Positions 35,942 through 53,935 of a DNA stretch of 53,935 nucleotides are shown piece by piece. The position numbers were made by a program, and so were the translations under genes. The number at the start of each line of letters is the position of its first letter. Position 1 is the stretch's first letter. The notes beneath the pieces were generated by a model that was not told the DNA's origin, made no database searches, and saw only the letters and a program-made list of their open reading frames with translations. Origin of the DNA: Nitrospirota bacterium (GTDB taxonomy: Bacteria; Nitrospirota; Nitrospiria; Nitrospirales; Nitrospiraceae); the NCBI GenBank assembly GCA_040757595.1, contig JBFLWP010000022.1, forward strand, positions 1 to 53,935. Reading direction: 5' to 3'.

Positions 35942-36053
35942 TGGTCCTCCCCACGTGGCGGATGCTCGGCCGCGTGTTGCTCGATCAGCTCCCAGGTTCG
36001 CAGATGGTCCCGCTGCGGAACACCCGGGTGGCCTTGTAGACGAAAGCACCCGG

Positions 36054-36694: not shown

Positions 36695-36828
36695 ACAAGT
36701 GTCTCCATTAACGGATTACCGCGCCGAACCTGTGGACGCATGGGTCCTGCGCCGGTCGGACGACCGACGACCAGCCGGTCTGCGCGGTGTGTGATGGAGT
36801 GGAAGAAAGGAAAACCCGGAGAACTGGC

Positions 36829-38462: not shown

Positions 38463-38598
38463 ATTCCCTCCTCGTCGGAGATGACGAGCGTGCTTGATCA
38501 CGCCCTGTCATGGAGCGCGTCTCCAGTTGGCGCGTATCGCTCTCAGTTGTGCAGGGCGATAAAGACCAGCGCAAACCGCTCGGGATCACGCGGGCTCC

Positions 38599-39015: not shown

Positions 39016-39127
39016 GTGGTCTCCATGGATAGGCGGCGGCCTCAGCGCGGATGACGCGCCGCGGCTCCCGCCTCATGCTAGGGGGGTGTGAGTGCGGAAG
39101 GGAACGGGAAACTAGCGCCAGGCGCGC

Positions 39128-39511
39128 TCAGCGCATAAACTGAAGCATCACGGCCATGGCGCTGATAATCGTGATGACCGATGCGAGCAACCAGCCTCGT
39201 TCGGCACGCAGCTCCGTTCTCACGGCTTGGATGTCCAACCGGAGGTCGGCCTTGACTTCAGCCAGGTCCGCCTTGGTCGCCAGGCGCAGCTGCTCGAGGC
39301 CCGCCTTGGTCGCCAGGCGCAGCTGTTCGAGGTCCGCCTTGACCGCATGGATTTCCGCCCGCAGATCGGCCTCTACCCGACCAATCTGCGACTGAGTGGC
39401 GAGATCATCAAGGCTTGCGGCGAGCATACCGCTCATGGCTTTCACCAACGCCTCCGCAACCGGCTCGTCGAAGCGGCCCTCGTCACGGAGCGTTCGATAG
39501 GTGGCATGCAC
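39128..39511 (-). CDS. DUF1640-like coiled-coil protein, second copy
   Basis: This protein of about 127 residues has the same plan as the protein at 36829-37290: head (HATYRTLRDEGRFDEPVAEA), a shorter coiled coil with three LEQLRLATKAD-type units, and a C-terminal membrane helix (WLLASVITIISAMAVMLQF). The 5' end is odd. The DNA GTATAATGCC before it matches the TAATG start of the first copy, but that ATG is out of frame by one base with the head, so translation as written must begin at GTG 39511. This may be a one-base error or a shifted start. Confidence 0.7.
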   Translation of the reverse strand: MHATYRTLRDEGRFDEPVAEALVKAMSGMLAASLDDLATQSQIGRVEADLRAEIHAVKADLEQLRLATKAGLEQLRLATKADLAEVKADLRLDIQAVRTELRAERGWLLASVITIISAMAVMLQFMR

Positions 39512-39705
39512 ATCGCATTGTCGGCATTATACGATTGTCCTCCAAGTCTGTAAAGCTCGCATTCGCTCAGCACCTGACGCCCGTGGGTGAACTTGATCGC
39601 CGCAAGCTCGTCATCCGTCAGGCGCCCGTACTCGCACTCGGCCTCCTCAATCACCACCGGAAGCGGCCCGGCGCATCGTGTCCTCCCGTGGCGTAATTCA
39701 CTCAT
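39442..39705 (-). CDS. Hypothetical operon protein, 3' end uncertain
   Basis: This 87-codon frame starts at ATG 39705 within the preceding stop region. The first 55 residues (PVVIEEAECEYGRLTDDELA, then AIKFTHGRQVLSECELYRLG) look like a genuine small acidic protein. The last 30 lie inside the coiled-coil gene in another frame and look like read-through. If one base is missing near 39520, the natural end would be a TAATG overlap as in the first coiled-coil copy. I do not recognise the family. Confidence 0.5.
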   Translation of the reverse strand: MSELRHGRTRCAGPLPVVIEEAECEYGRLTDDELAAIKFTHGRQVLSECELYRLGGQSYNADNAMCMPPIERSVTRAASTSRLRRRW

Positions 39706-39985
39706 GCGCCGCGGGCGTCGCTGGAGGTCCACCTGGCGGCTTCCGCGTTCTCCGTGCGGTTGACTTCGGCGCGGACCGGGGTAATTCCTCCCTCGTCACG
39801 AACGTTCCGTGCTGCACGCCGATGGCGTAAGCATTCTCGCAGGCCGCGCAGAAATGACGGAACCCATCGCTCGCGCGATCCTCTGACACGGGGACCTTCA
39901 TGGTCGCAGGAGATTCACAGTATTCGTTTTCGCAGAAGATCTCGCTTGCTTCCTGGCGTGTCACGTCCTCTTCAGCGTCTTCCAT
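39698..39985 (-). CDS. Hypothetical Cys-containing operon protein
   Basis: This 95-residue protein starts at an ATG eight bases after GGAGG. It contains IFCENEYCESPATMKVPVSE and FRHFCAACENAYAIGVQHGT: a CxxxxxC and a CxxC pair that could hold a zinc ion. The C-terminus is Pro/Arg rich. I do not recognise the family. It directly follows the AAA+ ATPase gene and may be its partner, since small zinc-ribbon proteins often accompany such ATPases on elements (inference). Confidence 0.55.
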   Translation of the reverse strand: MEDAEEDVTRQEASEIFCENEYCESPATMKVPVSEDRASDGFRHFCAACENAYAIGVQHGTFVTREELPRSAPKSTARRTRKPPGGPPATPAAHE

Positions 39986-40009
39986 GTGGAAACCTCCCGA
40001 TCGAGTGAC

Positions 40010-41509
40010 TCACAGGGCCATGGCCCGTTTGGGTTTGGCAGGGATCTCGGCCTTGGCGGTCGGAAGCTGGTACACGCCTGGGTAGCTGGCGGATAAATAC
40101 CGGCCGGCTGCCTGCCGTCTCAACTCCTCCACCGCATCCGGGGCCGCCTTGCAGGTCGGCACGAGGTACCGGGCCGCTTCCGTCAAGGGCATCTCGAGCT
40201 GCCAGGCCCGCTGACAGCACTGTTCGATCTCCGCACCCGTCCAGTTGGTATCGTCCGGCTGCGGGCAGTCCCTCGGGATCTCGTACTGCTTCCGGTAGAT
40301 CTTCCAGATGGCCGCTTTTTCGGCGTCATCCGGAAAATCGAACATCACCGTCCCGAGCTTGAACCGACGCCGCAGTTCCGGGGGCAACTGCTGACACTTG
40401 TTGCTCGTCGCGATAAACAACGCGGCATCGTCCGAAACCGCGCTAATCACCTTGAGCACCATGTCGGTGTTGCGTTCGGATTCCCCGACCAAGGACGACT
40501 TGGTGGAACCGGTGTCCCAGGCCAGGACCGGGATGCCGACTTCGTGGCCGGCCGCTTTGGCGATCTGCGACTTGCAGGTTCCGGGATGGCCGACCAGCAG
40601 GAGGCCGGTGGCCTTCTTGTCCTGCATGTAGGAGAGCAGCTTGCCGTGGATCGCCTGGCTGGTCCCGCTGGAATCCTGGACCGCACCCATGGCGCCGGCC
40701 AACATCTTCTCGATCTCGTCCATGAAGACAATGGCCCGGTACCGGATCTTGCCCGTGAGGATCTTGAGCAGATAGGACTTGAGGGCGCTCAACCCGCCGA
40801 TCTGGGCGAAGGATTCCTGCCCTTTCCAGACGGTGAGCCCCGGGACCTGCTCGATCATGCTCACTTTGCGTTGCCAGAGCTGGTCCAGCGAAATCCCATC
40901 CCGACGCATGGAGAGCGCGATCGCTTGCTCCGCGGCGAACAGGGGAAGCCCCCGAACCGCGTCCACTTCCCGGGAGATCCGCTGATCCTCCGGGATGGTC
41001 ACCTCGGCCGCCCGATATTGCTCCTCAAGCATGGCCTGAAGCTCTTGCGGGTTGGGATACGGCTCATCCAGGATCAGCACGTCATGCCGGAGCTCGGCCG
41101 GCAACGTGATGGATGGAGCCAACAGGATCAGCATCCGGTTATTGGACTTGAAGACGTCCCGCAGATTGCCGACCGCCTGGGCGACCGCCGGGTTGTCCAG
41201 AATCCGGTGCGCGTTCAACACCAGACAGGCCCCCCCGCGCGGTAACTTTTCGAGGACAGCCAACGCCATGACCGGATCGGTCGTGGCCTGCGGGTCCATG
41301 TCCCCGATCATCTGGGTGATGGCTTCGCCGCCGCGTGGATTGAGCCCCCTGAGCCCATGGATCAGGTCCCACCGGATGACCGGCAGGGCCTTGCCATTGG
41401 ACAGGAGCTCGCTCAGGGCATTGATGGCGCCATACTGATCCGCCGTGGTCAGTGCCACCAACGGAACGGAGACTCGGCGCGCCGCTTTGATGTGGTCGAG
41501 AATGGACAT
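40010..41509 (-). CDS. Ycf46-like AAA+ ATPase with permuted Walker order
   Basis: This 499-residue protein has an N-terminal half (1-230) that follows the Ycf46 pattern of a RecA-like non-catalytic domain (VPLVALTTADQYGAINALSE, GGACLVLNAHRILDNPAVAQ, then LAPSITLPAELRHDVLILDE). In the C-terminal AAA+ part the acidic block RYRAIVFMDEIEKML (about 256-270), with its following SGTSQAIHGKLLSYMQDKK, precedes the nucleotide loop GHPGTCKSQIAKA (about 307-319). After that come LVGESERN, sensor 1 FIATSNK and the arginine segment LPPELRRRF. Canonical AAA+ proteins have Walker A first. Walker A also reads GTCKS rather than GTGKS. It heads the operon; GGAGGTGGC precedes the ATG. Confidence 0.85.
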   Translation of the reverse strand: MSILDHIKAARRVSVPLVALTTADQYGAINALSELLSNGKALPVIRWDLIHGLRGLNPRGGEAITQMIGDMDPQATTDPVMALAVLEKLPRGGACLVLNAHRILDNPAVAQAVGNLRDVFKSNNRMLILLAPSITLPAELRHDVLILDEPYPNPQELQAMLEEQYRAAEVTIPEDQRISREVDAVRGLPLFAAEQAIALSMRRDGISLDQLWQRKVSMIEQVPGLTVWKGQESFAQIGGLSALKSYLLKILTGKIRYRAIVFMDEIEKMLAGAMGAVQDSSGTSQAIHGKLLSYMQDKKATGLLLVGHPGTCKSQIAKAAGHEVGIPVLAWDTGSTKSSLVGESERNTDMVLKVISAVSDDAALFIATSNKCQQLPPELRRRFKLGTVMFDFPDDAEKAAIWKIYRKQYEIPRDCPQPDDTNWTGAEIEQCCQRAWQLEMPLTEAARYLVPTCKAAPDAVEELRRQAAGRYLSASYPGVYQLPTAKAEIPAKPKRAMAL

Positions 41510-41888: not shown

Positions 41889-42518
41889 TTAACTGGGGAT
41901 TGGCAGGACCACCAGCGCGTCGAGTTCAGCCTTGAACCGTTCGATGGCCTGGTCTACCGCTTGACGGAGTGAGGTGATTTTCAGGGATTCGCCCAAGGAC
42001 CAGCCTGCAGCGTCTTGCAGTGATACGGAGACGGCTCTCTGCCAGGCCACCTCACCGGACTCCGTGAGCAGGAGCTTCGCGGTCAGCACGACAGGGGGCA
42101 AGGTTTCAACGTGGTGCGTGAGCAGCAGATCATGGATCGAGGGGCCGTCAATCCTGACCAGCAATAACCCGTCCGCCCCGGACAGCCGGCCGACCCGAAT
42201 CGCCGACTCGTCCGCCACTTGCCCGCTCACCTGCAGCGCATGCTCCTCAAGGACCGCGCCGAGCGCAGTTCGTTCAACGAACCGAATATCGGGCCGCTGG
42301 GCCAGCACGTCGTGCGCGGTGGCTTCGATCCTGGCGTAGGCCACTCGCCAGCGGAGATCGGCCGAGTCCGGCACCACGATCGCGATGCGCTGGACTCTCG
42401 CCAAGGGGGATTCCTGAGCCGGCAGGGAGGGGATGGAGCCGGGTCGCGCGCTCGAACATCCCCCCGCCAGCCCCGCAAGCACGAGTCCGCCAACCACGAT
42501 TCGCCATGTCGATTTCAT
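41889..42518 (-). CDS. CsgG/LpoB-like outer-membrane lipoprotein
   Basis: This 209-residue protein has a signal peptide with lipobox LAGLAGGC (Cys at 21). The mature part has RIAIVVPDSADLRWRVAYAR, then FVERTALGAVLEEHALQVSG and GRLSGADGLLLVRIDGPSIH. The ER-x-L-x-x-x-LEE and later GAD-LL elements match the CsgG/penicillin-binding-protein-activator (LpoB) fold. Such lipoproteins form or assist outer-membrane channels or activate cell-wall enzymes. It is the last gene of the envelope module, 8 bases after the peptidoglycan-binding lipoprotein, and is probably its partner. Confidence 0.7.
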   Translation of the reverse strand: MKSTWRIVVGGLVLAGLAGGCSSARPGSIPSLPAQESPLARVQRIAIVVPDSADLRWRVAYARIEATAHDVLAQRPDIRFVERTALGAVLEEHALQVSGQVADESAIRVGRLSGADGLLLVRIDGPSIHDLLLTHHVETLPPVVLTAKLLLTESGEVAWQRAVSVSLQDAAGWSLGESLKITSLRQAVDQAIERFKAELDALVVLPIPS

Positions 42519-42526
42519 GGTCTAGT

Positions 42527-43327
42527 TTACGGGGCGCTCGTCTGACGAACGACCGGTTTCACAAGGGGGGCTTGGTCTTTTTGGGCGGTCGGCACCACCG
42601 GGATCGGCCGAGCCGGGACGATCGCCTCCGTCGGCATCTTCTCCACGGCGGGCCCGGGCCTGGCGTCTCCAATCAGATCCGGTCCCTTGCCTTCCAGCGC
42701 CTGCTTGAGTCGAGAGGCGGTCTCCTGATCGTAGAGACCGGAACCCGGCAACTCCGCGATGCGCTGAAAAGTTTTGACCGCCTGCTCCGTTTCCTTTGTG
42801 TACTGTTCAGTCATTTCGACGCGCATCCCGGCCAGGTGCAAAGCCCGATGGAGTGCCAGGATGTCCGCTCCCTTCTGCCCCCGACGCAACGGGCCCGGGG
42901 GGACCCGTAGCTGAAGCGTCACCATATCGGGATCACCCAATTTGGGCTGATCGGTCTTATCGGCGACGGCCCTGACCGACGCTTCCACGGATTTCAACTG
43001 GGCGCCGAGCGTCTTGAGGTCTCGCTGTGTCGTTTCCATGGCCGATTTGACATCTTTCAACGCGCCGGTGAATTCCGCCACGGAAGCCTCGATTCCCGTG
43101 GCTTTCTGATGGGCCGACTTTGCGGTCCCCAAGGCTTCGCCGATCGATTCCGTATAGGCCTTTTGACTCGCATCGAGTCTGTCCTGCAGTCTCGCCTGGG
43201 CGGACAATAACCGTTCCGTCAAGATGTCAGGGGATGGCCCACTCGCGCATCCCATGAGGACGACCATTCCTGTCACGCCCATGAGGCTCGTGACGGACCG
43301 CAGGGTGCTCAGACCGCTCGCGCTCAT
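42527..43327 (-). CDS. Peptidoglycan-binding lipoprotein with coiled coil
   Basis: This 266-residue protein has a signal peptide ending in VTGMVVLMGC (lipobox). A coiled coil follows at about 35-125 (SAQARLQDRLDASQKAYTES, then METTQRDLKTLGAQLKSVEA). A PG_binding_1-type domain occupies about 140-215: LRRGQKGADILALHRALHLA, ETEQAVKTFQRIAELPGSGL, YDQETASRLKQAL. The C-terminus is Pro-rich. It should link the outer membrane to the cell wall, as needed to seat a secretin. The ATG at 43327 is two bases after the previous stop. Confidence 0.8.
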   Translation of the reverse strand: MSASGLSTLRSVTSLMGVTGMVVLMGCASGPSPDILTERLLSAQARLQDRLDASQKAYTESIGEALGTAKSAHQKATGIEASVAEFTGALKDVKSAMETTQRDLKTLGAQLKSVEASVRAVADKTDQPKLGDPDMVTLQLRVPPGPLRRGQKGADILALHRALHLAGMRVEMTEQYTKETEQAVKTFQRIAELPGSGLYDQETASRLKQALEGKGPDLIGDARPGPAVEKMPTEAIVPARPIPVVPTAQKDQAPLVKPVVRQTSAP

Positions 43328-43328
43328 C

Positions 43329-43889
43329 CTACTTCCCTCCCAGACCAATTCGCACAGCCGGTTGAATGGACACCAACACCTCTCCTTGATACAGTCCGGC
43401 CAGCCATTCCCCCCATCGTGCGCGTCCCTCAAGATAGACATCCGTCACCCACGTGGGTGGCCTCGAAACGACCAAGACCCGAGTCCCCTGCTCGGCCACG
43501 GGAACACGCCGGCCGTCCGGCAGAACCACCTCATATTCAGACGGCAAATGCCAGGATCCCACGGTGAGCGGCGCAGTTCGTGCCTCGAGCCAGACCGGGA
43601 TCATCGATCGAATGCTGATGGTCGTTTCGCACACGCTTGAGCTGCTCGATGGAGAGAGGCTGCCGAACTCGCATGGACGTGCCACGGCAAGGTGGGGCAC
43701 GATCGTCTGAGCCGCCCCGAACGTGTTCCACGGTTCCGCCAGGCTCGGCATTGGACTCAGTGCGAGGACCACCATCATCGCTCCGACAATCCGCCACCCC
43801 CATCTTGCTCCTAAAGAACCATGATGGATCCGCCGATAAGCCGGCAATTGTGGGAAGAGGTCGATCGGTGGCGATGGTTTCCCCTCCAT
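43329..43889 (-). CDS. Secreted protein of unknown function
   Basis: This 186-residue protein has a long n-region, then GWRIVGAMMVVLALSPMPSL and AEP as a probable signal peptide and cleavage site (about residue 51). The mature part is strand-rich (ISIRSMIPVWLEARTAPLTV, then YEVVLPDGRRVPVAEQGTRV and ARWGEWLAGLYQGEVLVSIQ). Two Cys in the mature part could form a disulphide. I do not recognise the family. Its setting, in front of the two lipoproteins, suggests an assembly or structural part of the envelope module. An internal ATG at 43778/43775 would give a shorter signal peptide. Confidence 0.6.
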   Translation of the reverse strand: MEGKPSPPIDLFPQLPAYRRIHHGSLGARWGWRIVGAMMVVLALSPMPSLAEPWNTFGAAQTIVPHLAVARPCEFGSLSPSSSSSVCETTISIRSMIPVWLEARTAPLTVGSWHLPSEYEVVLPDGRRVPVAEQGTRVLVVSRPPTWVTDVYLEGRARWGEWLAGLYQGEVLVSIQPAVRIGLGGK

Positions 43890-44425
43890 CGTCCGCCTCT
43901 CTGATTCAGGGCCGATCTACTGTGATCTGACGACCGAGATCGTCCCCTTGCATTTCGCTGAGGCCAAGCCACGCCTGACTTCAGCCTCGGTCCTCCCACT
44001 CAGGGAACAGGGGCGGTGGCGCCTCCTCATCAATCCGCTACCGTTTCTCTCTGCTTCTCAACGACTTCGCGTCGTTGAGCCGGATAGTGCTCTTCTCGAG
44101 ACCGTCCTGACTACGTTCGATCTGGTTTCCTCCTTCGACGACCCGCGGTGTCAAGTGTTTCGATCCGTTCGTCACCGCCTCAGGACGCCCGAGTCTGGGC
44201 ACGAACACTGATTCTCGGTCCGTTCACACGAATGCTTGGCAGAAACCGTGCCGCGCTCCTCTCGCACAAGCCGCAGCTCGTCCCAGACTTATGCCAGAGG
44301 CTTCCAAGCTCGTCGGGTCTCGCCCGGCTCAAGACACGACTCGTTTCAACCGATCTGTCCGCTGCCGTCTTGCAGAAGGACCCAGGGGTCCTTGAACGCC
44401 CTTCACCGGATTTGCCCGCGTCCCT
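43890..44425. other. Gene-free gap of 536 bases with two hairpins
   Basis: No convincing gene is present. CTCAACGAC-TTCGC-GTCGTTGAG (44057-44079) is a perfect 9-bp stem. AAGGACC-CAGG-GGTCCTT (44376-44393) is a 7-bp stem 33 bases after the FN3 protein's stop on the minus strand and may end that transcript. Neither has a T-run. The DNA is less GC-rich than the flanking genes. A promoter for the gene at 43889 must lie here, but I see no clear boxes. Confidence 0.4.
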
Positions 44426-45739
44426 TCAGCACGACAGTTGATCCCCACCGCTTCCGCTCGGTGAACAGGTTGGGGTCTCATTGCCTTCCGTGAAATAGAT
44501 CCCCTTCCAGTGATTGTCGTACCACGACTGACCATTGAGGTTCAGCCCGACGTTTGGCGGCATCCAGACCCGAATCTCTTGTGAAGGCTGATACGTCACA
44601 TTCCCGGCGTAGAGCCAGAAAAACACCCCACCCGGCTTGCTCGGCGGCATCGTCACATCCACCTGGCCCCCGCCCACGACGGTGACCCGATAGGTTCCCT
44701 GATTACCAGTGTTACGCGGGGCGACCAGCAGCCAGACCTTGTAGAACCTGGCGTTGCTGGGGAGCGGCGTCAACGTGGTCCTCGCGGCGTCGTCTACCGT
44801 AATATTCATCACGGTTGACGAGTTCGTCCTCATCAGGGACAGATACGTGCCGATATCCGTTTCCTTCGACCAACAGAATTCGTTTCTCACACCACAGTCC
44901 GGTCGGTAGTGGGTGAAACTGGCCGCATCGCGATACACCCGACCGACCAGCATGGTCGGCGTGGCCTGGGCGGCATTCGACCAGGCCGACTTCGTGCTGC
45001 CGACCACACTACGGACGGCCAGGCTGTAGGTTTGTCCGTTCGTCAGCCCGGTGAGAGTGTAGCTGGTCCCGCTGACGCTCACGAGCACGGCCTGGTTGGG
45101 ATCGAATGTGGCGCCAAGATGCCAGCCTAATTCATAGTTTGACGCGCCCGAGACGGCGCTCCACGATGCCGCAATCTGGTTCTCGCCCGCCGTGGCCGTG
45201 AAGCCGGTCGGGGCCGAGAGATCCGTGCTGGCGGCCACGACCGTCATCAGAATCTGTCCGGTGTACGTGCCCGAGATGGTACTCGTCGAGTCATTCTGAG
45301 CCGTTCCCGTAATGGCATAGGCCTGGACCGTCGCGAACGGCGCCGCCGTCTGATACAGCTGAGCCGTCTGGCCCGTGTCCGGGTTGACATTGATGGTCCC
45401 ACCGGCAGGGGGATGCACCACGTAGGCCGAGATCAGCCGCCGGCCATTTCCATTGGTCAGCGGGGAGGCCTGCAACCGGACCGAGATGTCACTGTTGGTT
45501 GAAATTTGGAGCGTGGACGAGCACGTCGCGTTCGCGACGGGAGTCATTTGTCCGAACAGGCAATCGGTCCACGTGGCATTGGCGAAAGGCACCACCGAGG
45601 CACTGGTCGGAATGGAACCCGTCAGGCCACCGCTTGGATTCCCAGTGACGACGCTCGCCTCTCCTCGGACGCGCATCACGCCGAGGACGATCAGAATTCC
45701 CACCAATACACGCATCCATGCGTATACAGTCCTGCTCAT
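44426..45739 (-). CDS. Adhesin-like protein: pilin-like domain plus FN3 plus C-terminal domain
   Basis: This 437-residue protein has a signal peptide (WMRVLVGILIVLGVMRVRGE). The N-terminal domain (about 25-175) parallels the pilin-like protein at 49088: SIPTSASVVPFANATWTDCL and QMTPVANATCSSTLQISTNS versus SIPTSATVTDYAEIVFNQCA and TATC, ending SGTYTGQILMTVV versus AGSYNGTIVVTVV. An FN3 domain follows (about 180-265; APTGFTATAGENQIAASWSA, then TYSLAVRS). A C-terminal domain of about 160 residues with PDCGVRNEFCW and aromatic strands may be the binding tip. This is the plan expected of a fibre tip or minor subunit. Confidence 0.75.
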   Translation of the reverse strand: MSRTVYAWMRVLVGILIVLGVMRVRGEASVVTGNPSGGLTGSIPTSASVVPFANATWTDCLFGQMTPVANATCSSTLQISTNSDISVRLQASPLTNGNGRRLISAYVVHPPAGGTINVNPDTGQTAQLYQTAAPFATVQAYAITGTAQNDSTSTISGTYTGQILMTVVAASTDLSAPTGFTATAGENQIAASWSAVSGASNYELGWHLGATFDPNQAVLVSVSGTSYTLTGLTNGQTYSLAVRSVVGSTKSAWSNAAQATPTMLVGRVYRDAASFTHYRPDCGVRNEFCWSKETDIGTYLSLMRTNSSTVMNITVDDAARTTLTPLPSNARFYKVWLLVAPRNTGNQGTYRVTVVGGGQVDVTMPPSKPGGVFFWLYAGNVTYQPSQEIRVWMPPNVGLNLNGQSWYDNHWKGIYFTEGNETPTCSPSGSGGDQLSC

Positions 45740-45866
45740 TGTTGTTCCCGCCTCCTCATGAGAAGAAAAGATCCCACCCCTTGATCGACTGCCCCACGCC
45801 ATCGACCGAGTCTCCCCATCATGGTCGCCTCCTCCTTGAGTGCCGTACTCCGTCGTATGCAACGAC

Positions 45867-47327
45867 CTATCCCGCGTCCACTGTTCCGACTTCTGCGGTC
45901 GCTGCGGTGGACGCCGACAGAAACATCACCAATTCGCTTTCGTCCGTTTTCCACCGCCGGCTCCCCGCCAACGCCCCGAGGATCGGGATGCGGGCCAGGA
46001 ACGGGATGCCCTCGTACGAATTGGCTTCGCTGCGCTGACGCAATCCCCCAATCGCGATCGTCCCCCCGTTGGGGATTCTGACCTGCGTCGAGGCCCGTCG
46101 CCGGTTGACCAACGGGCGATTGTCAGCGGTCGGGACCGCCGTTGACGCTTCAGCTTTCTTCACGTCCACGACCAGGGCCTCGTCCGTCGCCAGACGGACC
46201 GTCATATCCAGTTCGATCCCGGCCGGCACCTTTTCCACCGTGATGAACGGAAAGTTCAGCGGGCCGGATTGAAAGCTGAAATATTGCTCCGTGCCGATGA
46301 AGATCGAGGCCTGCTCCCCCTCAAGGGCCAGAATCCGCGGCGCCGCGATCACGCGCGCCTGGCTGTTGGTCTCCAAGGCCTTCAGCTTTGCCAGCAACTG
46401 CACCGCGCCGACCGGTCCCGCCCAGGTCAGCATTGCCCCAGCCGAATCGGCGGTCGCGCGCGCGGCCTTGGTGACATCGGAGGCCATGGCCGGCCCGTCC
46501 AGACGAGGCATGCGTCCGGACCAGGACATCCCGAGCTCATCCAAGGCCTGCCGGGAGAGATCCACGACGATGGCCTCAATGACCAGCTGCTTCGACCGTT
46601 GATCCAACTCCGCCAGCAACTTGGAGAGGCGGGCGGTGACGATGCCGGGGGCCGTCACCAAGAGGGCGTTGCGTTTGCCGTCCACCTTGATATACGAGGA
46701 CGCCCAATCCGGCAGCATCATGCGGAGATCATCGGCTCGGAGGTGGCGCGGGCGGTAGATGGATGTCGTCACCAGCAGGGGATAGACCGCGGATTTGCTG
46801 TCCGCAGGGCCAACCAGCCACCCATCCCCAAACGGGGTTGCGACCAGACCGAGGGGCAGCGTCACGCGCTCGAGGGCCACCGGGAGCGGGGTCATCTCCA
46901 GCGTCAAGGTCACCGTGCCCTGTAACTGCGGATCCATGACGATCGGCACTTTGGCTTGCGCGGCGATGTCCGAGAGGACCTGCTTAAGATCCGTATCCAT
47001 CCAGGTATTCGTGATCCGCGGGTGGGAACCCTGCGCCTGTTCCTTCTCAAGCTTCGACGCCTCCATCAACCGCTTCGCCGCAGCGGAAATCCGCCCCTTG
47101 ATCTCCGTGAGGTGCTCCGTGATCCGCGCCGATCGTCCGATTTCCGCCGAGGTGACGTTGGCCCCTGCTTGTTCAGACCGGCTGGCCTCTGCTGCGAGCT
47201 CGACCGTGGCCGGCTTGGCGTGACATCCGACGACCGCCAGCAGCAGGCCGGACAGGCCCACGGTCATCCACGCGCGGGATCGCCACCCATGCCCGGTTCG
47301 GTTCCTCTTGCCCCAGTGTTTCTGCAT
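45867..47327 (-). CDS. Secretin lipoprotein (GspD/PilQ/BfpB-like)
   Basis: This protein of about 486 residues has a signal peptide with LSGLLLAVVGC (lipobox Cys about 34). A helical region follows, then an STN-like/N0 part (WMDTDLKQVLSDIAAQAKVP, then TLTLEMTPLPVALERVTLPL), an N1-like domain (DGKRNALLVTAPGIVTARLS) and the secretin core: SKQLVIEAIVVDLSRQALDE, SQARVIAAPRILALEGEQAS, VPAGIELDMTVRLATDEALV, then VRIPNGGTIAIGGLRQRSEA and GIPFLARIPILGALAGSR. The PNGGTIAIGGL and IP-LG-LF-like blocks are diagnostic. It forms an outer-membrane channel. A GTG at 47351 coupled to the upstream stop is an alternative start. It is the sole outer-membrane pore candidate; no usher gene is present. Confidence 0.9.
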   Translation of the reverse strand: MQKHWGKRNRTGHGWRSRAWMTVGLSGLLLAVVGCHAKPATVELAAEASRSEQAGANVTSAEIGRSARITEHLTEIKGRISAAAKRLMEASKLEKEQAQGSHPRITNTWMDTDLKQVLSDIAAQAKVPIVMDPQLQGTVTLTLEMTPLPVALERVTLPLGLVATPFGDGWLVGPADSKSAVYPLLVTTSIYRPRHLRADDLRMMLPDWASSYIKVDGKRNALLVTAPGIVTARLSKLLAELDQRSKQLVIEAIVVDLSRQALDELGMSWSGRMPRLDGPAMASDVTKAARATADSAGAMLTWAGPVGAVQLLAKLKALETNSQARVIAAPRILALEGEQASIFIGTEQYFSFQSGPLNFPFITVEKVPAGIELDMTVRLATDEALVVDVKKAEASTAVPTADNRPLVNRRRASTQVRIPNGGTIAIGGLRQRSEANSYEGIPFLARIPILGALAGSRRWKTDESELVMFLSASTAATAEVGTVDAG

Positions 47328-47347
47328 GGTGTCGTCTTTCCCCGCCC

Positions 47348-48952
47348 TCACGGCGCGCCGGCGATCTCGGCGGCCGGTCCCGTTACGGACAGCGGGCGCT
47401 TGGCGTCGTTATCCACCACTGCGCCGATCCGATACCGTCCGGCGGCGAGATCGGACGGCCATGCCGCGGCAAAGGTCCGCTCTTCGCCCGGCCCGATGGT
47501 GCGCTCGCCGGCCAGGAGCGACACGCGGGCCGGCTCCGAGACGCCGGGGATCTCCACGATGGCTTGCACCGTGGGTTCCAGCGTGATCGGACCGGTATTT
47601 TTTACCGTGACCATCAACTGTTTATTTTGGAGCACAACCGGTGTAACTTCCGCTTGCGGTTTCATGGTGCTGACGGCGACTCGGAGCGGCAGACCTGGGA
47701 TGATGGTGTGTTCGGGCTCTTTCCCGGCGAGTTCACCCGCGATCTCCGCCTGACACTGCGTCTTGACGCCTGGTCCGGCCAGGATCGTCAGGGCGACTCC
47801 CATGCGCATCTGCGACGGCACCTCCACGTCGCCCGGCGCGTCCAGCGTCCAGCCCTCACACAGGGCCCCGCGAGGTCGCGGCTGAATCGCCACCCGAACC
47901 GGACTGCCCGTTTCGTTTCGGAGGGCCAGCGTCAGCGTCCGCCGTCCGCCCGGCGCCATCGTCACGTCCAGCGGATCTCCCTCAAACCGCACCGGCGCGC
48001 CCCCCGTCCTCCCGCCTTTCGCCGACGCATCCGCGTCGAGGACCAGGGGAACGGTCGAGACGAGCGTGCGATTGTTTCCGTAGCGCACCACCAGCCGCGT
48101 CTGATACGTGCCAGTCCCCATCGAGCGCTTGACGGCGCCGGTGAAGGTCACAAACCCCCCGGGATACACCGACTGCGTGGTGACTGTCCGATCGGCCTTG
48201 AAACTTTCCAGTTGGAGCCGTTCCAGGATCCGGCTGCCGTCTTCCGTCAACACCACCGCTTCGGCCTGAACGGGGGTGGTGGCTTCGGCCAGGTTGGCGA
48301 TCTCCGCCGTGAGCATCGGAGACGGCTGCACCGACCATTCAGCCTGCCGGACGCCCACTTTGAACGGCACGCTGCTTCCGTCGATGCTCACGCGCATCAT
48401 GACGGCGTACCGCATAATCATCTTGGTCACGGCCTGCATCATGCCCGTCTTGGCGGCGGCCCCTCCTCCCTCTTCTTGAGGGACGACTTCGATCAGGACC
48501 GCGCACACGCGATCCCCACGGGTCCGCTTGGGGACGGCGACGGCGGCCTGTAGCGTCACGCCCTCACCGGCCGCCAGCGCGCTCGGAGCATTCTCCACGG
48601 ACAACCATTTTCCGCATGAGTTCGGATATTCGCCCGCTTCAAAGAAGTTCGCGATGCCGTTCCCTTGCTGGACGGCATCGTAGGCGGCCACCGTAATCTG
48701 CACCGGGCGCGACAGCCGATTGAGCAGCCGAATCGGATAACTCGCCCGGTCTCCCGCGCCGATTTGCGCGTTGATCTCCAGCGGATCCACAATCATGCCG
48801 CCGCGCCCACTCCCGCCCGACACCCCGGTGGACTTGACCGCGACGACCGGCTTTGACCCCGCCCACCCGGGGTCGGCCGGCCCAATCCATCCCATCAGCG
48901 TCAAGATGATGATGCCGTATCCCAGACTGACTTGCGGACGTGCAGGCTTCAT
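47348..48952 (-). CDS. Large periplasmic chaperone-like multi-Ig protein
   Basis: This 534-residue protein has a signal peptide (GYGIIILTLMGWIGPADPGW). The N-terminal part (about 40-200) follows the layout of alpha-type fimbrial chaperones: MIVDPLEINAQIGAGDRASY, PIRLLNRLSRPVQITVAAYD, then GDRVCAVLIEVVPQEEGGGA. Further Ig-like modules follow (about 210-330, 335-430, 435-530), each with strand-turn patterns such as APGGRRTLTLALRNETGSPV and LMVTVKNTGPITLEPTVQAI. Ordinary chaperones have two Ig domains and about 240 residues, so this is roughly double. AAGGAGGAG precedes the ATG at 48952. It probably guides the two pilin-like proteins to the secretin (inference). Confidence 0.7.
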   Translation of the reverse strand: MKPARPQVSLGYGIIILTLMGWIGPADPGWAGSKPVVAVKSTGVSGGSGRGGMIVDPLEINAQIGAGDRASYPIRLLNRLSRPVQITVAAYDAVQQGNGIANFFEAGEYPNSCGKWLSVENAPSALAAGEGVTLQAAVAVPKRTRGDRVCAVLIEVVPQEEGGGAAAKTGMMQAVTKMIMRYAVMMRVSIDGSSVPFKVGVRQAEWSVQPSPMLTAEIANLAEATTPVQAEAVVLTEDGSRILERLQLESFKADRTVTTQSVYPGGFVTFTGAVKRSMGTGTYQTRLVVRYGNNRTLVSTVPLVLDADASAKGGRTGGAPVRFEGDPLDVTMAPGGRRTLTLALRNETGSPVRVAIQPRPRGALCEGWTLDAPGDVEVPSQMRMGVALTILAGPGVKTQCQAEIAGELAGKEPEHTIIPGLPLRVAVSTMKPQAEVTPVVLQNKQLMVTVKNTGPITLEPTVQAIVEIPGVSEPARVSLLAGERTIGPGEERTFAAAWPSDLAAGRYRIGAVVDNDAKRPLSVTGPAAEIAGAP

Positions 48953-49021
48953 CAACACTCCTCCTTGCCGAGTCTCATCACCCCGGGCTCAAATCCGGAG
49001 CAAGCGTTCCAACGAGCGCGC

Positions 49022-49067
49022 AAAAGAAAGGGGGCGGCCCCAACCACGATACTGAGACTCGCCCCCT
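49022..49067 (-). terminator. Rho-independent terminator after the pilin-like gene
   Basis: AGGGGGCG (49029-49036) pairs with CGCCCCCT (49060-49067). On the minus strand the stem is followed by TTTCTTTT. It lies 21 bases after the pilin-like stop and before the chaperone-like gene, so it can make the subunit mRNA more abundant than the distal genes. Confidence 0.7.
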
Positions 49068-49087
49068 CTCCACCCCTCCCGTTCCGG

Positions 49088-49624
49088 TTACTGCTTGACC
49101 ACCGTCACGACGATGGTGCCGTTGTACGAACCGGCAATCGTCTCGCCGTTGATGACGGAGGCCGACCCCGCGATGGCGTAGGTCGTGGGGGTATCCAACG
49201 GCGCAGCGTTCTGAGCCACCACGTAGCTGGTGTTGGTGGAGCCAGGATCCGCCGAGATGGCGGCGCTGGCCGGATTGGCGCCCTGCGCGAACGTGTAGGA
49301 GCTGTTGATGTGCTCCGTGCCGCCGCTCCGGGTCATCCGGGTCGGCGTGAACGTCACGTTGATGTTCGCATTGCTCTTCACCTGCGCGCTGTCCGTGCAG
49401 GTCGCCGTGGCGCCCGGACCAGTCATGGCCGAGAACGCACACTGGTTGAAGACGATCTCCGCATAGTCCGTCACGGTCGCAGACGTCGGGATCGAGGCGG
49501 AAATGCCGGCACCGGCCGGATCCCCGCTGACGGACCCGGCGAAGGCCGGAGTCGTCATCAACGCGCCGGCTACGGCCAGCGCCACCATCTTCCCCGTGAT
49601 CCCCTTGAGATGCTTCAGAATCAT
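49088..49624 (-). CDS. Secreted pilin-like major subunit candidate
   Basis: This 178-residue protein has a Sec signal peptide (MVALAVAGALMTTPAFA, cut before GSVSG). The mature 148-residue domain is Ala/Thr/Ser/Val rich with a Cys pair (NQCAFSAM and TATCTDS), strand patterns, and a terminal AGSYNGTIVVTVV strand of the kind that ends many beta-sandwich fimbrial subunits. It has no type IV pilin leader, so it is not a type IV pilin. Its own promoter motif at 49890, own terminator and strong AGGAGGG site suggest high expression, as for a fibre shaft subunit. It shares the domain of the protein at 44426-45739. Confidence 0.7.
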   Translation of the reverse strand: MILKHLKGITGKMVALAVAGALMTTPAFAGSVSGDPAGAGISASIPTSATVTDYAEIVFNQCAFSAMTGPGATATCTDSAQVKSNANINVTFTPTRMTRSGGTEHINSSYTFAQGANPASAAISADPGSTNTSYVVAQNAAPLDTPTTYAIAGSASVINGETIAGSYNGTIVVTVVKQ

Positions 49625-49889
49625 ACGATGCCCTCCTTGCTGCGGATCAGCAGCCCTCTCTGGCTGCCGTCTCGGATTGTGAGATGTTCCTCTGCTCGGT
49701 CCCATTCCGAGTTCAGAGTCTTGACCGTGTCACCACCAACATGCGCGCCCCTCGTTCACGACCGGACCATCGTCCCCTCCTTACCCGCTTCCATCCAGGC
49801 GCTCCGGTTTGGAGCGGCCCGGCGTTTCGCCTTCGCTCACGCGGTCGCCAATCGTCCCTGATCGACGTCGTGGCGCGAGCCCCTCGCCT

Positions 49890-49910
49890 CCTATATTACG
49901 GACGAGCCGC
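49890..49910 (-). promoter_or_regulatory. GTAATATAGG motif upstream of the pilin-like gene
   Basis: The minus strand reads GCGGCTCGTCCGTAATATAG then G. It is shared almost exactly with 41755 and partly with 51485 and 51743. The distance to the gene is 266 bases, giving a long leader that contains a small hairpin (GCTCC-GGTTT-GGAGC near 49801-49815). Confidence 0.5.
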
Positions 49911-49921
49911 AGCCCGAACGG

Positions 49922-50794
49922 CTACACTCCCCCGACTCCGCGCTTTTTGTGCGCGCGAAAGATCGGCTCGATGCTCTCGGTCAACATCCCCGGCCACGTT
50001 TCCGCGACCCCGCTCGCGACCAGCGAGGCGTCCACGCACGGTCGCCGCTCCTGGTATGCGCGTAGGAGCGCTCGATCGGCGACCATGTTGAGGCGCAGAG
50101 GGATACCGGCTGCGGCATCGACGATGGCGTCGAGCGCGTCCGGCACGATTATGGGCCGCGCTCCCTGGCCGGCCATCCCGAGCCGCTCCTCCACGTAGCG
50201 CTTGGCGTCATCGGGGGACAAAGCGGACAGGGTCGCCCATTGCCCAACTCGACAAGCGAGACCGAGCTCTTGCACGTGTTGAGATAATTCAGGCCGACCG
50301 ATCAGGACGAGCGTCAGGCCCCACTGGGCGCCGGCATGGACATTCCGGCACATCCGTAGCGCATCGAACCCATCCAAGACGTGTCCCAATGCCTGCGCCT
50401 CATCCACCAGGAGCACCACGCGCTTCCGCCGGGACTCCTGCGCAACCAGGAAGGCCATGAGACGAAGCCACTGGTCGTGGAGATCGCCGACAGGCCGCAC
50501 GCCAAACTGCGACAAGACTTCCCGGAGCCACGTGTCACGTGTGAGCAGGTAGGGATTGACGATCAGGCCGACCTCGTGACGGGCCGGGTCCAGCGTCCGC
50601 ACCAATCGCCGGGCAAGGAGTGTTTTTCCGCTGCCGGCTTCGCCCGTCAGCACAACGAGCCCCTTTCGATGGTCAATGCCTTCCCGAATCGACTGAAATG
50701 CGGCCTCATGACCGGGCACGGGGACATACCGGTCCGGATCCGGCGCCTCTTCAAATGGAGGGTGCGCGAGCCCCCAGTAGGTTTCATATCCCAT
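49922..50794 (-). CDS. ExeA/GspA-like AAA+ ATPase
   Basis: This 290-residue protein opens MGYETYWGLAHPPFEEAPDP, the Y-x-x-x-x-GL--PPF--TPDP signature of the ExeA/GspA family. Walker A is GEAGSGKT, Walker B VVLLVDEAQAL, and sensor region LTLVLIGRPELSQHV. The C-terminal helical part ends LNMVADRALLRAYQERRPCV. Classical ExeA continues into a TM and peptidoglycan-binding domain; here these are absent, and the next gene upstream supplies a separate TM. GspA-type ATPases help insert and assemble secretins through the cell wall, so this fits the secretin at 45867. The ATG at 50794 is chosen because the domain begins there. Confidence 0.85.
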   Translation of the reverse strand: MGYETYWGLAHPPFEEAPDPDRYVPVPGHEAAFQSIREGIDHRKGLVVLTGEAGSGKTLLARRLVRTLDPARHEVGLIVNPYLLTRDTWLREVLSQFGVRPVGDLHDQWLRLMAFLVAQESRRKRVVLLVDEAQALGHVLDGFDALRMCRNVHAGAQWGLTLVLIGRPELSQHVQELGLACRVGQWATLSALSPDDAKRYVEERLGMAGQGARPIIVPDALDAIVDAAAGIPLRLNMVADRALLRAYQERRPCVDASLVASGVAETWPGMLTESIEPIFRAHKKRGVGGV

Positions 50795-50811
50795 TTCGTT
50801 CGATTGCCCCG

Positions 50812-51063
50812 CTACGACGCCGACCGCCGCCACTGTTCGGACTCTCGATACCAGCGCGCCTTGGCTCGCTGGAGTTCCCGTTCCATCAAAAACAGACGCC
50901 GTTCCTCATCTTTCGGTTCGTATCGTTCTTGCGCTCTGAGGTCGCTGACGCCGATCTCCTTCGCCAACCAGTAGCTCGCGAAAGAGGCGAGCAGCGCGAG
51001 GGCGAGGACCACTCCCCCCCACCGAGTCAGCTGTCGCCAGGATCGCCCACGACGTTTCCCCAT
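50812..51063 (-). CDS. Small single-TM coiled-coil protein
   Basis: This 83-residue protein has a basic N-terminus (MGKRRGRSWRQLTRW), one TM (GGVVLALALLASFASYWLA), then a charged helix (DEERRLFLMERELQRAKARW). GAGG precedes the ATG at seven bases. Its topology is N-in with a periplasmic coiled coil. It stands directly upstream of the ExeA-like gene and could be its membrane partner, in the place GspB holds in classical systems (inference from position). Confidence 0.6.
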   Translation of the reverse strand: MGKRRGRSWRQLTRWGGVVLALALLASFASYWLAKEIGVSDLRAQERYEPKDEERRLFLMERELQRAKARWYRESEQWRRSAS

Positions 51064-51209
51064 GAAGATGCCTCGTGGGCCTCTCAGCCTGTTCTTGCTC
51101 TCGGCGCGCATCTCAGCCGAACTCTCGAATGCAGGGGTGGGTGGAGTTCAGGGCCGGGCCGGTCAGCGATTTCCGTACGGCTCCGAAGTCCGTGATGGCC
51201 GACGCCTTC

Positions 51210-51425
51210 TTAGTTCCCGCCCCTCTTTTCGTCTGACTTCTCCTCGTCCGCTTTCGGAAACCCGGGCTTCTTGTCCTTGGATTTCCCCTTGTCTTGGTCC
51301 TTGTGGCCGTCTTCGTGAGCCATGACCGAGTTCAGGTCCTGCTCGTGATTCCCTGCGAACGCGGCCACGGCCCCCAGCCCGACCCCCAACACCATCGCCA
51401 ACCCCACCAATGCTTTCCCGGTCAT
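51210..51425 (-). CDS. Small secreted charged protein
   Basis: This 71-residue protein has a clean signal peptide (KALVGLAMVLGVGLGAVAAF, cut after AFA) and a mature 46-residue hydrophilic part rich in Lys, Asp, Glu and His (HEDGHKDQDKGKSKDKKPGF). AAAAAGGAAGAG precedes the ATG. I do not recognise the family. The His/Asp-rich segment may bind metal. It has its own GTAATA motif 60 bases upstream. The 146 bases between it and the next gene hold nothing evident. Confidence 0.6.
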   Translation of the reverse strand: MTGKALVGLAMVLGVGLGAVAAFAGNHEQDLNSVMAHEDGHKDQDKGKSKDKKPGFPKADEEKSDEKRGGN

Positions 51426-51484
51426 CTCTTCCTTTTTGCTCGGGTTGTGGCTTTTTGCCCCAATTCCTCATCGGGCTCCGTTTA

Positions 51485-51506
51485 GGTATTACGTCCTGAC
51501 GAAGCC
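51485..51506 (-). promoter_or_regulatory. GGACGTAATACC motif upstream of the small secreted protein
   Basis: The minus strand reads GGCTTCGTCAGGACGTAATA then CC. The 12-base GGACGTAATACC is identical at 51743. The TAATAC hexamer ends about 60 bases before the ATG at 51425. Confidence 0.5.
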
Positions 51507-51701
51507 ACTCCCTGCGGCCTCTTCAAATTTTTTTCGCATGACCAGCATGACCCCAGGTTGGTTGGCTGGACGAGACGGGTCCAACGGTTGGGCCGTACAG
51601 GGCCGATGCCAGTACAGACCGGCCGCCCAGAGCAGGTCTCGGGACGTACTCGGGAGCAGAAACGCTTCCCGGCAGGTCTGGCATTGCAGATAGGTATCCA
51701 A
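51489..51701 (-). CDS. Small CxxC protein, putative zinc ribbon
   Basis: This 70-residue frame begins with TTG at 51701. It reads MDTYLQCQTCREAFLLPSTS, then RDLLWAAGLYWHRPCTAQPL, with one CxxC and a further Cys and His that could form a zinc knuckle. The composition seems real, but the start codon is weak. Its 3' end overlaps the GTAATA motif of the next gene (51485-51506), which is unusual. I do not recognise the family. Confidence 0.45.
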   Translation of the reverse strand: MDTYLQCQTCREAFLLPSTSRDLLWAAGLYWHRPCTAQPLDPSRPANQPGVMLVMRKKFEEAAGSGFVRT

Positions 51702-51821: not shown

Positions 51822-51856
51822 TTCATGGCGTGAATGATTATCATTCACGTCGTGAA
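51822..51856. promoter_or_regulatory. Fur-box-like palindrome overlapping the ATPase start
   Basis: The core GTGAATGATTATCATTCAC (51830-51848) is a perfect 9-1-9 dyad except for the central base. It extends to an imperfect 17-1-17 palindrome from TTCATGGCG to CGTCGTGAA. It matches 14 of 19 positions of the classical Fur consensus (GATAATGATAATCATTATC). The ATG at 51834 lies inside the dyad, so a bound protein would block both transcription and initiation. Confidence 0.55.
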
Positions 51857-53114
51857 TAGTCTACCGACACCCCTTCCGCGCTCTCTCACCAAGGAAGTCG
51901 TCCACGCGCTGGCCGAGTTTCCGGTTGTCGTCCTGACCGGGGCCAGGCAGACCGGGAAAAGCACGCTGATCCGCGAGCTGCTCCCCGCATCAGGCCGGGA
52001 TTACCGCACCCTGGATGATCTTGATGTACTGGAGCGGGCTCAGCGAGAGCCGGAAGCCCTCGTCAGCTCCAAGGGACCAGTGACCATTGACGAAATCCAG
52101 CGGAGCCCGGACCTGCTGTTAGCCATCAAGCGGGCCGTCGATCGAGACCGAAAGCCGGGGCGGTTCCTGCTCTCCGGCTCCGCCAACCTCGCCCTGTTCG
52201 GCAAGGTGTCGGAGACCTTGGCCGGCCGCGCGGTCTATCTGACGCTGTACCCGTTCACCGCGGCCGAACGAATCGGGCTAGGCACTGTCGGCCAGTGGGA
52301 AAAAGTCTTTCATGATCCGTCGCAATTCGAAGGGGCTCATCCCGCCTTTGGACGAGCAGAGGGAGGGCTCCTTCAGAGCGGATTTCCTCCTGCCGCACTG
52401 ATGAAGACTCATGCGCTTCAGAGAACCTGGCTGGACGGCTATGTCAGGACCTATCTGGAACGGGACCTCCAGACCCTCTCGTCCATTGAGAACCTGGTGG
52501 ATTTCCGACGGCTCATGCGGGTCGCGGCCCTCCGATCAGGCTCGCTCATCAACCAGAGTCAGATCGCCCGTGACGCCGGGCTTCCCCAGCCGACGGCGCA
52601 CCGGTATCTGAACTTGCTGGAGGTCTCCTCCCTCCTCCATCGCCTGTCGGCCTATGCGGTCAATCGGACCAAGCGCGTCATCAAGGCTCCGCGCCTCTTT
52701 TTCTGTGACACCGGGCTGGCCGCCTATCTGGCTGGAATCGCGACCACGGCCGATCTCGAAAAGGCGGGACTGACAGGCGCTCTCTTGGAGACCCTGGTCT
52801 TCAGCGATCTGCTCGCGTGGCGCGAGACACTGACGCCCAGGCCGGAGATTCTCTACTGGAGAACGGTCTCAGGGGCGGAGGTCGATTTTGTGATCGAGCG
52901 AGCCGGGAAGGTGGTGCCTCTCGAAGTCAAAGCCGGCGGTCGGCCCCGCACTCCCGACATTCACCATCTTCGATTCTTCCTCGATGAATACGGGACAACC
53001 GCGCCCCATGCCGTGCTCCTGCACACAGGCCAGCGTTGCGAGCCGCTCGCGGACCGGATCTGGGCAATCCCGCTGTCGGCAGCCTTGGGACTGTCCAACA
53101 GCAAACCGCAATAA
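51834..53114 (+). CDS. AAA_14/DUF4143 ATPase
   Basis: This 426-residue protein has Walker A TGARQTGKST at about 36-45, the DDLDVLERA segment, Walker B VTIDEIQRSPDLL, and sensor LLSGSANLALFG. DUF4143 fills about 190-370 (LQRTWLDGYVRTYLERDLQT, INQSQIARDAGLPQPTAHRY, VIKAPRLFFCDTGLAAYLAG). A nuclease-like end reads ILYWRTVSGAEVDFVIERAG, then VVPLEVKAGG, the D...E-x-K pattern. Function is unknown; this family is widespread and often horizontally acquired. The ATG at 51834 lies within a palindrome; GTG at 51852 is an alternative. Confidence 0.9.
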   Translation: MIIIHVVNSLPTPLPRSLTKEVVHALAEFPVVVLTGARQTGKSTLIRELLPASGRDYRTLDDLDVLERAQREPEALVSSKGPVTIDEIQRSPDLLLAIKRAVDRDRKPGRFLLSGSANLALFGKVSETLAGRAVYLTLYPFTAAERIGLGTVGQWEKVFHDPSQFEGAHPAFGRAEGGLLQSGFPPAALMKTHALQRTWLDGYVRTYLERDLQTLSSIENLVDFRRLMRVAALRSGSLINQSQIARDAGLPQPTAHRYLNLLEVSSLLHRLSAYAVNRTKRVIKAPRLFFCDTGLAAYLAGIATTADLEKAGLTGALLETLVFSDLLAWRETLTPRPEILYWRTVSGAEVDFVIERAGKVVPLEVKAGGRPRTPDIHHLRFFLDEYGTTAPHAVLLHTGQRCEPLADRIWAIPLSAALGLSNSKPQ

Positions 53115-53147
53115 ACAGCCGTTACGGGCTGGATCATGCCAACCCTT

Positions 53148-53190
53148 GACATCCTCCCCGGCCTGAAGGCCGGCGATTCCTACGGCGTTC
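53148..53190. mobile_element. IS605/TnpB-type end hairpin
   Basis: TTGACATCCTCCCCGGCCTG followed by AAGGCCGGCGATTCC is the usual palindromic right end of IS200/IS605 elements. GGCC-TGAA-GGCC is the hairpin core. No tnpA or tnpB is nearby, so it is a solo end. A second stem, AGCGGCCC (53201-53208) with GGGCCGCT (53223-53230), follows. Confidence 0.55.
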
Positions 53191-53259
53191 AGACCCCACC
53201 AGCGGCCCGAATCGCTTCGGGGGGGCCGCTTCGGTACAGGACTGTTTTGTTGTCCGTCT

Positions 53260-53549
53260 TCATCCCACGTCCCTCACGCCAAGGATCATGGCTTCAACCT
53301 CACCGTTCACGATTTCAGCAGCCTTTGTTGCTTCCGCAGGTTTTCGCAGCAGGTCCGCACGTTCACTGGCCACCTCTCGTTGCTTCTCTGCTGGCACATG
53401 AGGAATTGGGAACTGGAGGAGATTGTCAACGTAGAGCCGCTGCTTGACCGCGCCAACCCGATGCACCTGGATCAATTCGATGAAGAAGGGCGTTCCAATC
53501 AGCACGGCGACGAATCCGGGCAGCAATCCAGACCTGACTGGAGTGCTCC
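53260..53549 (-). pseudogene. hsdS: hsdS (type I restriction specificity subunit) 3' fragment
   Basis: The minus-strand frame reads GFVAVLIGTPFFIELIQVHR, VGAVKQRLYVDNLLQFPIPH and VPAEKQREVASERADLLRKP to a TGA at 53260. The GAVKQ-x-L---NL-xFPIP--P--EQ order is the classical end of an HsdS target-recognition domain followed by its dimerising helix. The gene is cut at about 53550 by the IS3-type element, so the N-terminal part must lie beyond the IS, outside the window. No hsdM or hsdR is visible. Confidence 0.75.
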
Positions 53550-53935
53550 TGTAAGCTCCCCCGCCAAGGAGACACTCCCAAAGGAGAAGTTCCGGCTGTG
53601 AGTTTGGCCCGATACAAGGTCGGCGGAAGCCCCGCCAAGGTCTCATGGGGCCGTTCCTCGTTATAGCTGTCCAACCATTCCGCACTGATCTCCCGGACCT
53701 GGTCGAGCGACTCAACCACATAGGCATCGAGCACGTCGGTCCGGTAGGTGCGATTGAACCGTTCGATGAAGGCATTCTGACCCGGCTGGCCCGGCGGGAT
53801 GTACCGACGGGCGATGCCCCGCTCGGTGCACCAGGACACAAACCGCTCGGCCAGCAGTTCCGGCCCGTTATCGAGCCGAATCGCCTGCGGCTGGCCGCGC
53901 CAGGCCACGACCTGTTCCAGCACGCGAATCACCCG
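53426..53935 (-). CDS. IS3-family transposase OrfB, partial at window edge
   Basis: The window ends inside this gene; only its C-terminal 168 codons are seen. It shows the rve integrase core QAIRLDNGPELLAERFVSWC, IARRYIPPGQPGQNAFIERF, NRTYRTDVLDAYVVESLDQV and SYNEERPHETLAGLPPTLYR, with the last catalytic Glu in FIERFNRTYR. Normal IS3 OrfB ends just after PTLYR-x-KL; here the frame runs on for about 50 codons past the likely IS end (TGTAAGCTCCCCCGCC, starting 53550) into the hsdS fragment. The stop codon seems lost or shifted. Confidence 0.85.
   Translation of the reverse strand, partial: RVIRVLEQVVAWRGQPQAIRLDNGPELLAERFVSWCTERGIARRYIPPGQPGQNAFIERFNRTYRTDVLDAYVVESLDQVREISAEWLDSYNEERPHETLAGLPPTLYRAKLTAGTSPLGVSPWRGSLQEHSSQVWIAARIRRRADWNALLHRIDPGASGWRGQAAALR

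Follow-up and report, generated by a model that had tools for sequence, protein, structure and literature searches.

Secretins and chaperone-usher pili normally constitute separate routes across the outer membrane, and in the latter it is donor-strand exchange that powers assembly. We analysed a locus of a Nitrospirota bacterium in which a secretin gene lies among genes for a chaperone-like protein and pilin-like subunits. The window, i.e., the whole stretch of DNA analysed, is 53,935 bp long and corresponds to one entire contig (C22) of a 3.37 Mb genome in 36 contigs. Nine open reading frames (ORFs), all on the minus strand between positions 41889 and 51111, encode in this order a transmembrane (TM) protein, an ExeA-like ATPase, a pilin-like subunit, a chaperone, a secretin, an FN3 protein, a secreted protein, a peptidoglycan-binding lipoprotein and a CsgG-like lipoprotein; each was found at the position given in an earlier note, which had described the cluster from the DNA alone. 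We propose, with a probability of roughly 0.6, that this locus codes for a chaperone-secretin fibre pathway, and we rate it as a variant of the pilus systems that depend on a chaperone. We assign it neither to the chaperone-usher systems nor to the type II secretion systems (T2SS) and type IV pili, because an usher is absent and the secretion ATPase and prepilins are absent from the locus. More tentatively, at somewhat under even odds, the locus would belong to a distinct class of fimbrial export found in Nitrospirota, Planctomycetota and Poribacteria, in which donor-strand-exchanged fibres exit via a secretin and neither an usher nor a secretion ATPase nor a pseudopilus takes part. No description of a secretin combined with a chaperone/pilin system was found in the full-text literature searched, a scope to which most subscription papers and all preprints do not belong.

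Several features recall the chaperone-usher pili (archaic Csu, type 1 Fim and F1 Caf1): the structure models suggest a two-domain Ig chaperone fold and pilin-like subunits, the subunit genes adjoin the chaperone gene, and both a candidate N-terminal donor strand and a larger adhesin-like subunit are present. On the other hand, this genome lacks a PF00577 usher and the cluster contains a secretin instead, the chaperone has two extra Ig domains, and the putative adhesive domain is placed C-terminal to the pilin domain. The subunits consist of at least two paralogues, namely the Sec-secreted subunit 1 (49088-49624, minus strand; 178 aa with a signal peptide) and the N-terminal domain of the FN3 protein (44426-45739, minus strand), which are 34% identical; no further copy of this domain was detected in the genome. 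In the latter protein the pilin-like domain is followed by FN3 (fn3, 6e-8) and by a C-terminal domain without assignment, an arrangement which makes it a candidate tip or adhesive subunit. The longest block common to the two paralogous domains, SIPTSA[T/S]V, is found shortly after the signal peptide in a stretch of alternating hydrophobic positions, as a donor strand would show, and this stretch is therefore a donor-strand candidate; the corresponding role may be assigned to the N-terminal extension GAGISASIPTSATV of subunit 1 (49472-49513, minus strand). The secreted 186-aa protein (43329-43889, minus strand) aligns weakly with subunits 1 and 2 (hhalign E 0.057), shares with them the C-x-F ... 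C pattern and the AG-x-Y-x-G C-terminal strand, and may be a third pilin-like subunit.

The model of subunit 1 (pLDDT 54) superimposes on CsuA/B with Z 7.2 over 108 residues at 2.9 Å, and CsuA/B, FimA, FimG and the FimH pilin domain fill most of its top 19 rows with Z about 6-7. A fold match this middling, together with the fact that secretins classically pass folded proteins and that the fibre is deduced from genes and models, leaves room for a simpler scheme, which we consider unlikely: the secretin would export beta-sandwich proteins as monomers or short oligomers in a pared-down secretion of surface or matrix proteins, with a chaperone that only solubilises them and no fibre. The subunits themselves argue for the fibre pathway, since they come in paralogous pairs or triplets, carry the alternating N-terminal block and include one that is fused to FN3 and a further domain in the manner of a tip adhesin, all of which are traits of polymerising pilins. 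Paralogous subunit pairs are also present in the loci of relatives described below.

The putative periplasmic chaperone (47348-48958, minus strand) is a multi-Ig protein of 536 aa, whose domains 1-2 are chaperone-like and whose domains 3-4 are extra. Among Pfam families it matches only CARDB, below threshold (9e-4), and PapD is not matched. In its structure model (pLDDT 49), residues 38-312 are closest to the WxLIP of Enterococcus faecium (Z 12.4), followed by SfaE (12.0) and by FimC, SafB and Caf1M (11-12); residues 378-532 match the protein's own domain 2 in an internal comparison. At the end of domain 1 there is a segment resembling a G1 strand (MIMRYAVMMRVSI, 48383-48433, minus strand), which may act as such, and an R-[IVY] segment at this place is conserved in most of 13 aligned chaperones. 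A Z near 7, as obtained for the subunit, proves nothing alone; the weight would lie in the fact that two separate models pick matching partners of one pathway. We consider the chaperone and pilin folds supported by these models rather than demonstrated.

The top fold match brings in the Gram-positive WxL/WxLIP clusters, in which a tandem-Ig partner likewise lies beside beta-sandwich surface proteins. WxLIP has a C-terminal TM helix and is predicted to bind WxL via an inserted strand (PMC10599100). By analogy, the Ig protein could stay bound to its subunits as a scaffold and the complex be anchored to, or displayed on, the outer membrane or the cell wall, with a secretin that only exposes it; weak matches to WxLIP_PGBD (0.018) and WxLIP_HBD (0.02), in this order, in a chaperone-bearing Poribacteria locus (L143) point in the same direction. 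We find this improbable, given that the chaperones of chaperone-usher systems score within 1 Z unit of WxLIP, that the chaperones of our set lack the C-terminal TM helix and that the subunits showed no WxL domain. The present locus also differs in being diderm and in having a secretin, and the window protein has neither a TM anchor nor a Pfam WxLIP match.

The proposed exit channel is a short lipidated secretin (45867-47327, minus strand; lipobox LLLAVVGC), which matches PF00263 at 6e-33 (114 bits, cut-off 27.5) and is composed of N0 and one Secretin_N (both weak matches) followed by the secretin domain. The NCBIfam models of GspD, PilQ and SctC also match it, all below cut-off. Among solved structures, the virion export secretin 7ofh is nearest to it in sequence (2e-23), ahead of PilQ and GspD chains. 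Filamentous phage pIV (f1), a short secretin which exports a filament, is a natural comparison; however, pIV falls outside the clade described below and no phage genes are found at this locus. With type II secretion and type IV pili the locus shares the secretin domain with N0 and a nearby ExeA-like ATPase, while the cluster differs by having no GspE/PilB, GspF/PilC or prepilins.

The absences were verified as follows. That an usher is missing, as supposed from the cluster alone, holds for the whole genome: PF00577 gives no match at E <= 1, and the control search detected ushers only in E. coli. No T2SSE ATPase was matched on this contig, and the whole-genome search revealed three T2SSE-type frames on others, one of GspE/PilB type on contig C13 and two PilT-like on C4. 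The GspF/PilC platform and prepilins are not among the Pfam matches of the cluster; no genome-wide search was made for platform or prepilin peptidase. The genome encodes two secretins, the one in question and another, a long open frame, on contig C1.

The secretin alignment was scanned against 84,980 species genomes, and the rankings given here are among the matches listed. A Planctomycetaceae metagenome-assembled genome (MAG; locus L054, 33% identity over residues 105-486) and locus L055 were clearly at the top, and a Poribacteria MAG (L058) ranked fifth. L054 contains two paralogous pilin-like genes, the secretin and a 570-aa chaperone; L058 contains chaperone and secretin, and the same MAG has a pilin-pilin-chaperone contig (L143). 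Among the best 80 secretin loci, the chaperone profile detected a chaperone in these two, L054 and L058, alone, both of which are part of that profile. Used alone on 294 genomes of the Planctomycetota, the chaperone profile matched five further genomes, four of which (G544, G562, G474 and G613; loci L152, L153, L155 and L156) have a secretin in a co-oriented cluster with chaperone and pilin-like genes. Because G562 and G474 are near relatives (their secretins are 92% identical), these four represent three independent lineages. The fifth (G594, L151) is of the barrel type described below. A further chaperone match, on contig C78 of G474, was taken as an artefact, as no ORF there fits either profile. 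In Poribacteria, one locus of G767 (L163) unites pilins, two chaperones and a secretin; within L163:1924-11041 the two chaperones are distinct paralogues and at least three pilin-like genes accompany the single secretin. The window proteins are distant from their counterparts, the secretin being 31% identical to that of L152 over 400 aa and the chaperone 22% identical to that of L153 over 365 aa (73.6 bits; E-values in this comparison refer to tiny databases).

Overall, the core set comprises pilin-like subunits, a multi-Ig chaperone and a secretin, and it was found in five genomes of Planctomycetota, two of them near relatives, and in two Poribacteria MAGs, always co-oriented. The gene order varies (pilins-chaperone-secretin, pilins-secretin-chaperone or secretin-pilins-chaperone); therefore, the linkage persists through rearrangement. 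The earlier note had proposed a larger set and suggested looking for its co-occurrence elsewhere: secretin, chaperone-like and pilin-like genes do recur together in these two phyla, whereas the cassettes of the relatives showed neither an ExeA-like ATPase nor cell-wall lipoproteins.

In the secretin tree, the eight chaperone-linked secretins and that of L055 form one clade (support 98/95), apart from PilQ, GspD-like, Haliovirga T2SS, f1 (pIV) and Pf3 secretins, and a clade of the eight without L055 is not rejected (p-AU 0.39). Within it, the window secretin groups with those of L054 and L156 (94/89). In the locus under study, a secretin of this clade, a multi-Ig chaperone and pilin-like genes share one cluster and one orientation. 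As for L055, its secretin lies next to the break of the contig, and the MAG is labelled Bacillota; at L055:9608-10927 the frame of a sigma-54 activator runs directly into the secretin, which looks like an assembly chimera. Two of three long secretin-like ORFs arranged in tandem in another MAG (L056:9449-14726, with no chaperone there) were, on the first trees, the closest relatives not linked to a chaperone. A Haliovirga plasmid secretin was rejected as a candidate, as its neighbours include GspE and GspG of a type II locus, and on a Deinococcus wulumuqiensis plasmid (L167:5646-10409) a secretin adjoins an S8 peptidase and a protein with an Ig-like domain. Neither the secretin alignment nor the pilin DNA pattern matched viral contigs.

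Linkage and tree together bear on a more trivial explanation, namely that the neighbourhood is loose or due to chance, with a secretin that serves the type IV pili of the genome and other genes that encode unrelated surface proteins. The GspE/PilB-type and PilT-like frames and the second secretin elsewhere in the genome would fit this possibility, as would the finding that the nearest secretins examined in the phylum are mostly PilQ of pilMNOPQ operons without a chaperone. We set it aside as very improbable, since the co-oriented linkage recurs, under several gene orders, in two phyla besides this one and the separate secretin clade excludes PilQ and GspD.

No comparable chaperone was found in 175 genomes of the same family, in which a single match (E 0.005) covers only the C-terminal domain, and among 396 Nitrospirota genomes the chaperone is matched convincingly in G285 and G221 and borderline in G102. 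Relatives of chaperone and pilin were not found in the plasmids searched, nor was the chaperone found in viral contigs, and the pilin alignment had no match in the species genomes. In G285 and G221 the pilin-like genes are followed by a two-domain chaperone and by a protein of 945-951 aa with N-terminal Ig-like domains and a CarboxypepD/SdrD_B C-terminus; no PF00577 match was seen at these two loci. They belong to a sister set (L009:167-4420, L010:6124-10714, L151:7087-13079, L168:5787-11533 and L169:5929-11502) hosted by Nitrospirota, Planctomycetota and Deinococcus plasmids, which resembles the present locus in the homologous two-domain chaperone beside pilin-like subunits. The difference resides in the outer-membrane partner, a protein of 945-1,058 aa with an Ig-like N-terminus, a predicted barrel and an SdrD_B/CarboxypepD-like C-terminus, which is neither PF00577 nor a secretin and is possibly an undescribed type of usher. 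In chaperones of the secretin type the Ig-like domains number three or four (413-570 aa); those of the barrel type, the ones on Deinococcus plasmids included, have two (about 270-300 aa). In a 15-sequence database the third chaperone domain is weakly similar to the N-terminal Ig-like domains of the barrel protein, with FixG_C matches in both. From this we infer that the docking domains would be carried by the chaperone in systems with a secretin, and by the channel itself in those with a barrel.

The earlier suggestion that chaperoned beta-sandwich subunits leave through a secretin is supported by the co-occurrence in two phyla, the single secretin clade, the lack of an usher in the genome and that of GspE/PilB on the contig. 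In the pathway that we envisage, Sec would export the beta-sandwich subunits to the periplasm, where the multi-Ig chaperone would hold them, its domains 1-2 working like PapD/FimC (or WxLIP). The subunits would then polymerise through N-terminal donor-strand exchange, which would suffice to energise assembly, with the pilin-FN3 protein as the tip or adhesive subunit. The dedicated secretin would replace the usher as exit channel, and the extra Ig domains of the chaperone may dock the complex to the periplasmic ring of the secretin, a task of usher domains elsewhere.

A number of observations weigh against this pathway. The locus is known here from genes and models, from which the fibre itself is deduced, and both models are of low confidence. 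The secretin has no usher docking domains, which leaves the ordering of assembly to be explained. The pilins of different phyla show no detectable sequence similarity. One Poribacteria genome (G765) has two pilin-chaperone loci without adjoining secretin. The profile of 11 secretin-type chaperones detects the L054 chaperone only once this is aligned in, being weak alone. Finally, the usher negative covers PF00577, and a barrel of the L009/L010 type was not searched for elsewhere in this genome.

Of the remaining genes of the cluster, all on the minus strand, those for the ATPase and the lipoproteins are local accessories and not core, as is the FN3 adhesin; for the ATPase and the cell-wall lipoproteins this follows from their not being seen in the relatives' cassettes. 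The ATPase (49922-50833; AAA_22, 8e-21) has Walker A GEAGSGKT and Walker B VVLLVDEAQ and matches the ExeA/GspA-like model TIGR03015 at 5e-44, yet with 150.7 bits against a cut-off of 324.5. In Aeromonas, ExeA and ExeB are required for assembly of the ExeD secretin (PMC4098917), which makes an ExeA-like ATPase attractive as an accessory; the present protein is without the TM and periplasmic parts of ExeA, and the missing periplasmic part is a further reason not to count it as core. Its gene overlaps by 22 bp with that of the 99-aa TM protein (50812-51111), which has a single TM helix and a short coiled-coil, no match in Pfam or NCBIfam, and may be a secretin-assembly accessory. Together with the peptidoglycan-binding lipoprotein (42527-43336; PG_binding_1, 1e-6, and a lipobox in the sequence), these two proteins could, in this species, help to insert the secretin into the wall. 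The last lipoprotein (41889-42518) is CsgG/LpoB-like with sub-threshold matches (CsgG 0.002, 17.9 bits against a cut-off of 20.8; LpoB 0.043); the locus thereby differs from curli, and no curlin domain was found among the scanned proteins.

Elsewhere on the contig, genes for a TraG/TraD-like coupling protein, a DnaG-like primase, RadC and an AAA ATPase lie in a row (25034-41509), an arrangement which suggests a plasmid or an integrated (conjugative) element beside the fibre locus. The region 3438-31395 is dense in hybrid sensor kinases, response regulators, sigma-54 activators and HDOD and GGDEF/EAL proteins; two small proteins (36829-37671 and 39128-39511) contain tandem TKADLEQLRLA coiled-coil repeats (CCDC90-like); and the contig end is taken up by an AAA_14/DUF4143 ATPase and, after it, a fragment of an rve transposase (51834-53932).

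If the proposed pathway is correct, the usher would be replaceable, and two outer-membrane routes that are usually separate, secretin and chaperone-usher, would be joined in one recurrent locus. Together with the sister loci, this would mean that a single chaperone family has found two parallel answers, a secretin and a barrel, and one would have to ask what, in place of an usher, orders and drives assembly. The locus would also offer a candidate for surface fibres, as yet uncharacterised, of phyla that are difficult to work with. In Planctomycetota, fibres have been seen at crateriform structures of the outer membrane and the proteins involved were left open (PMC5394234); as a matter of speculation, the pathway may contribute to these fibres.

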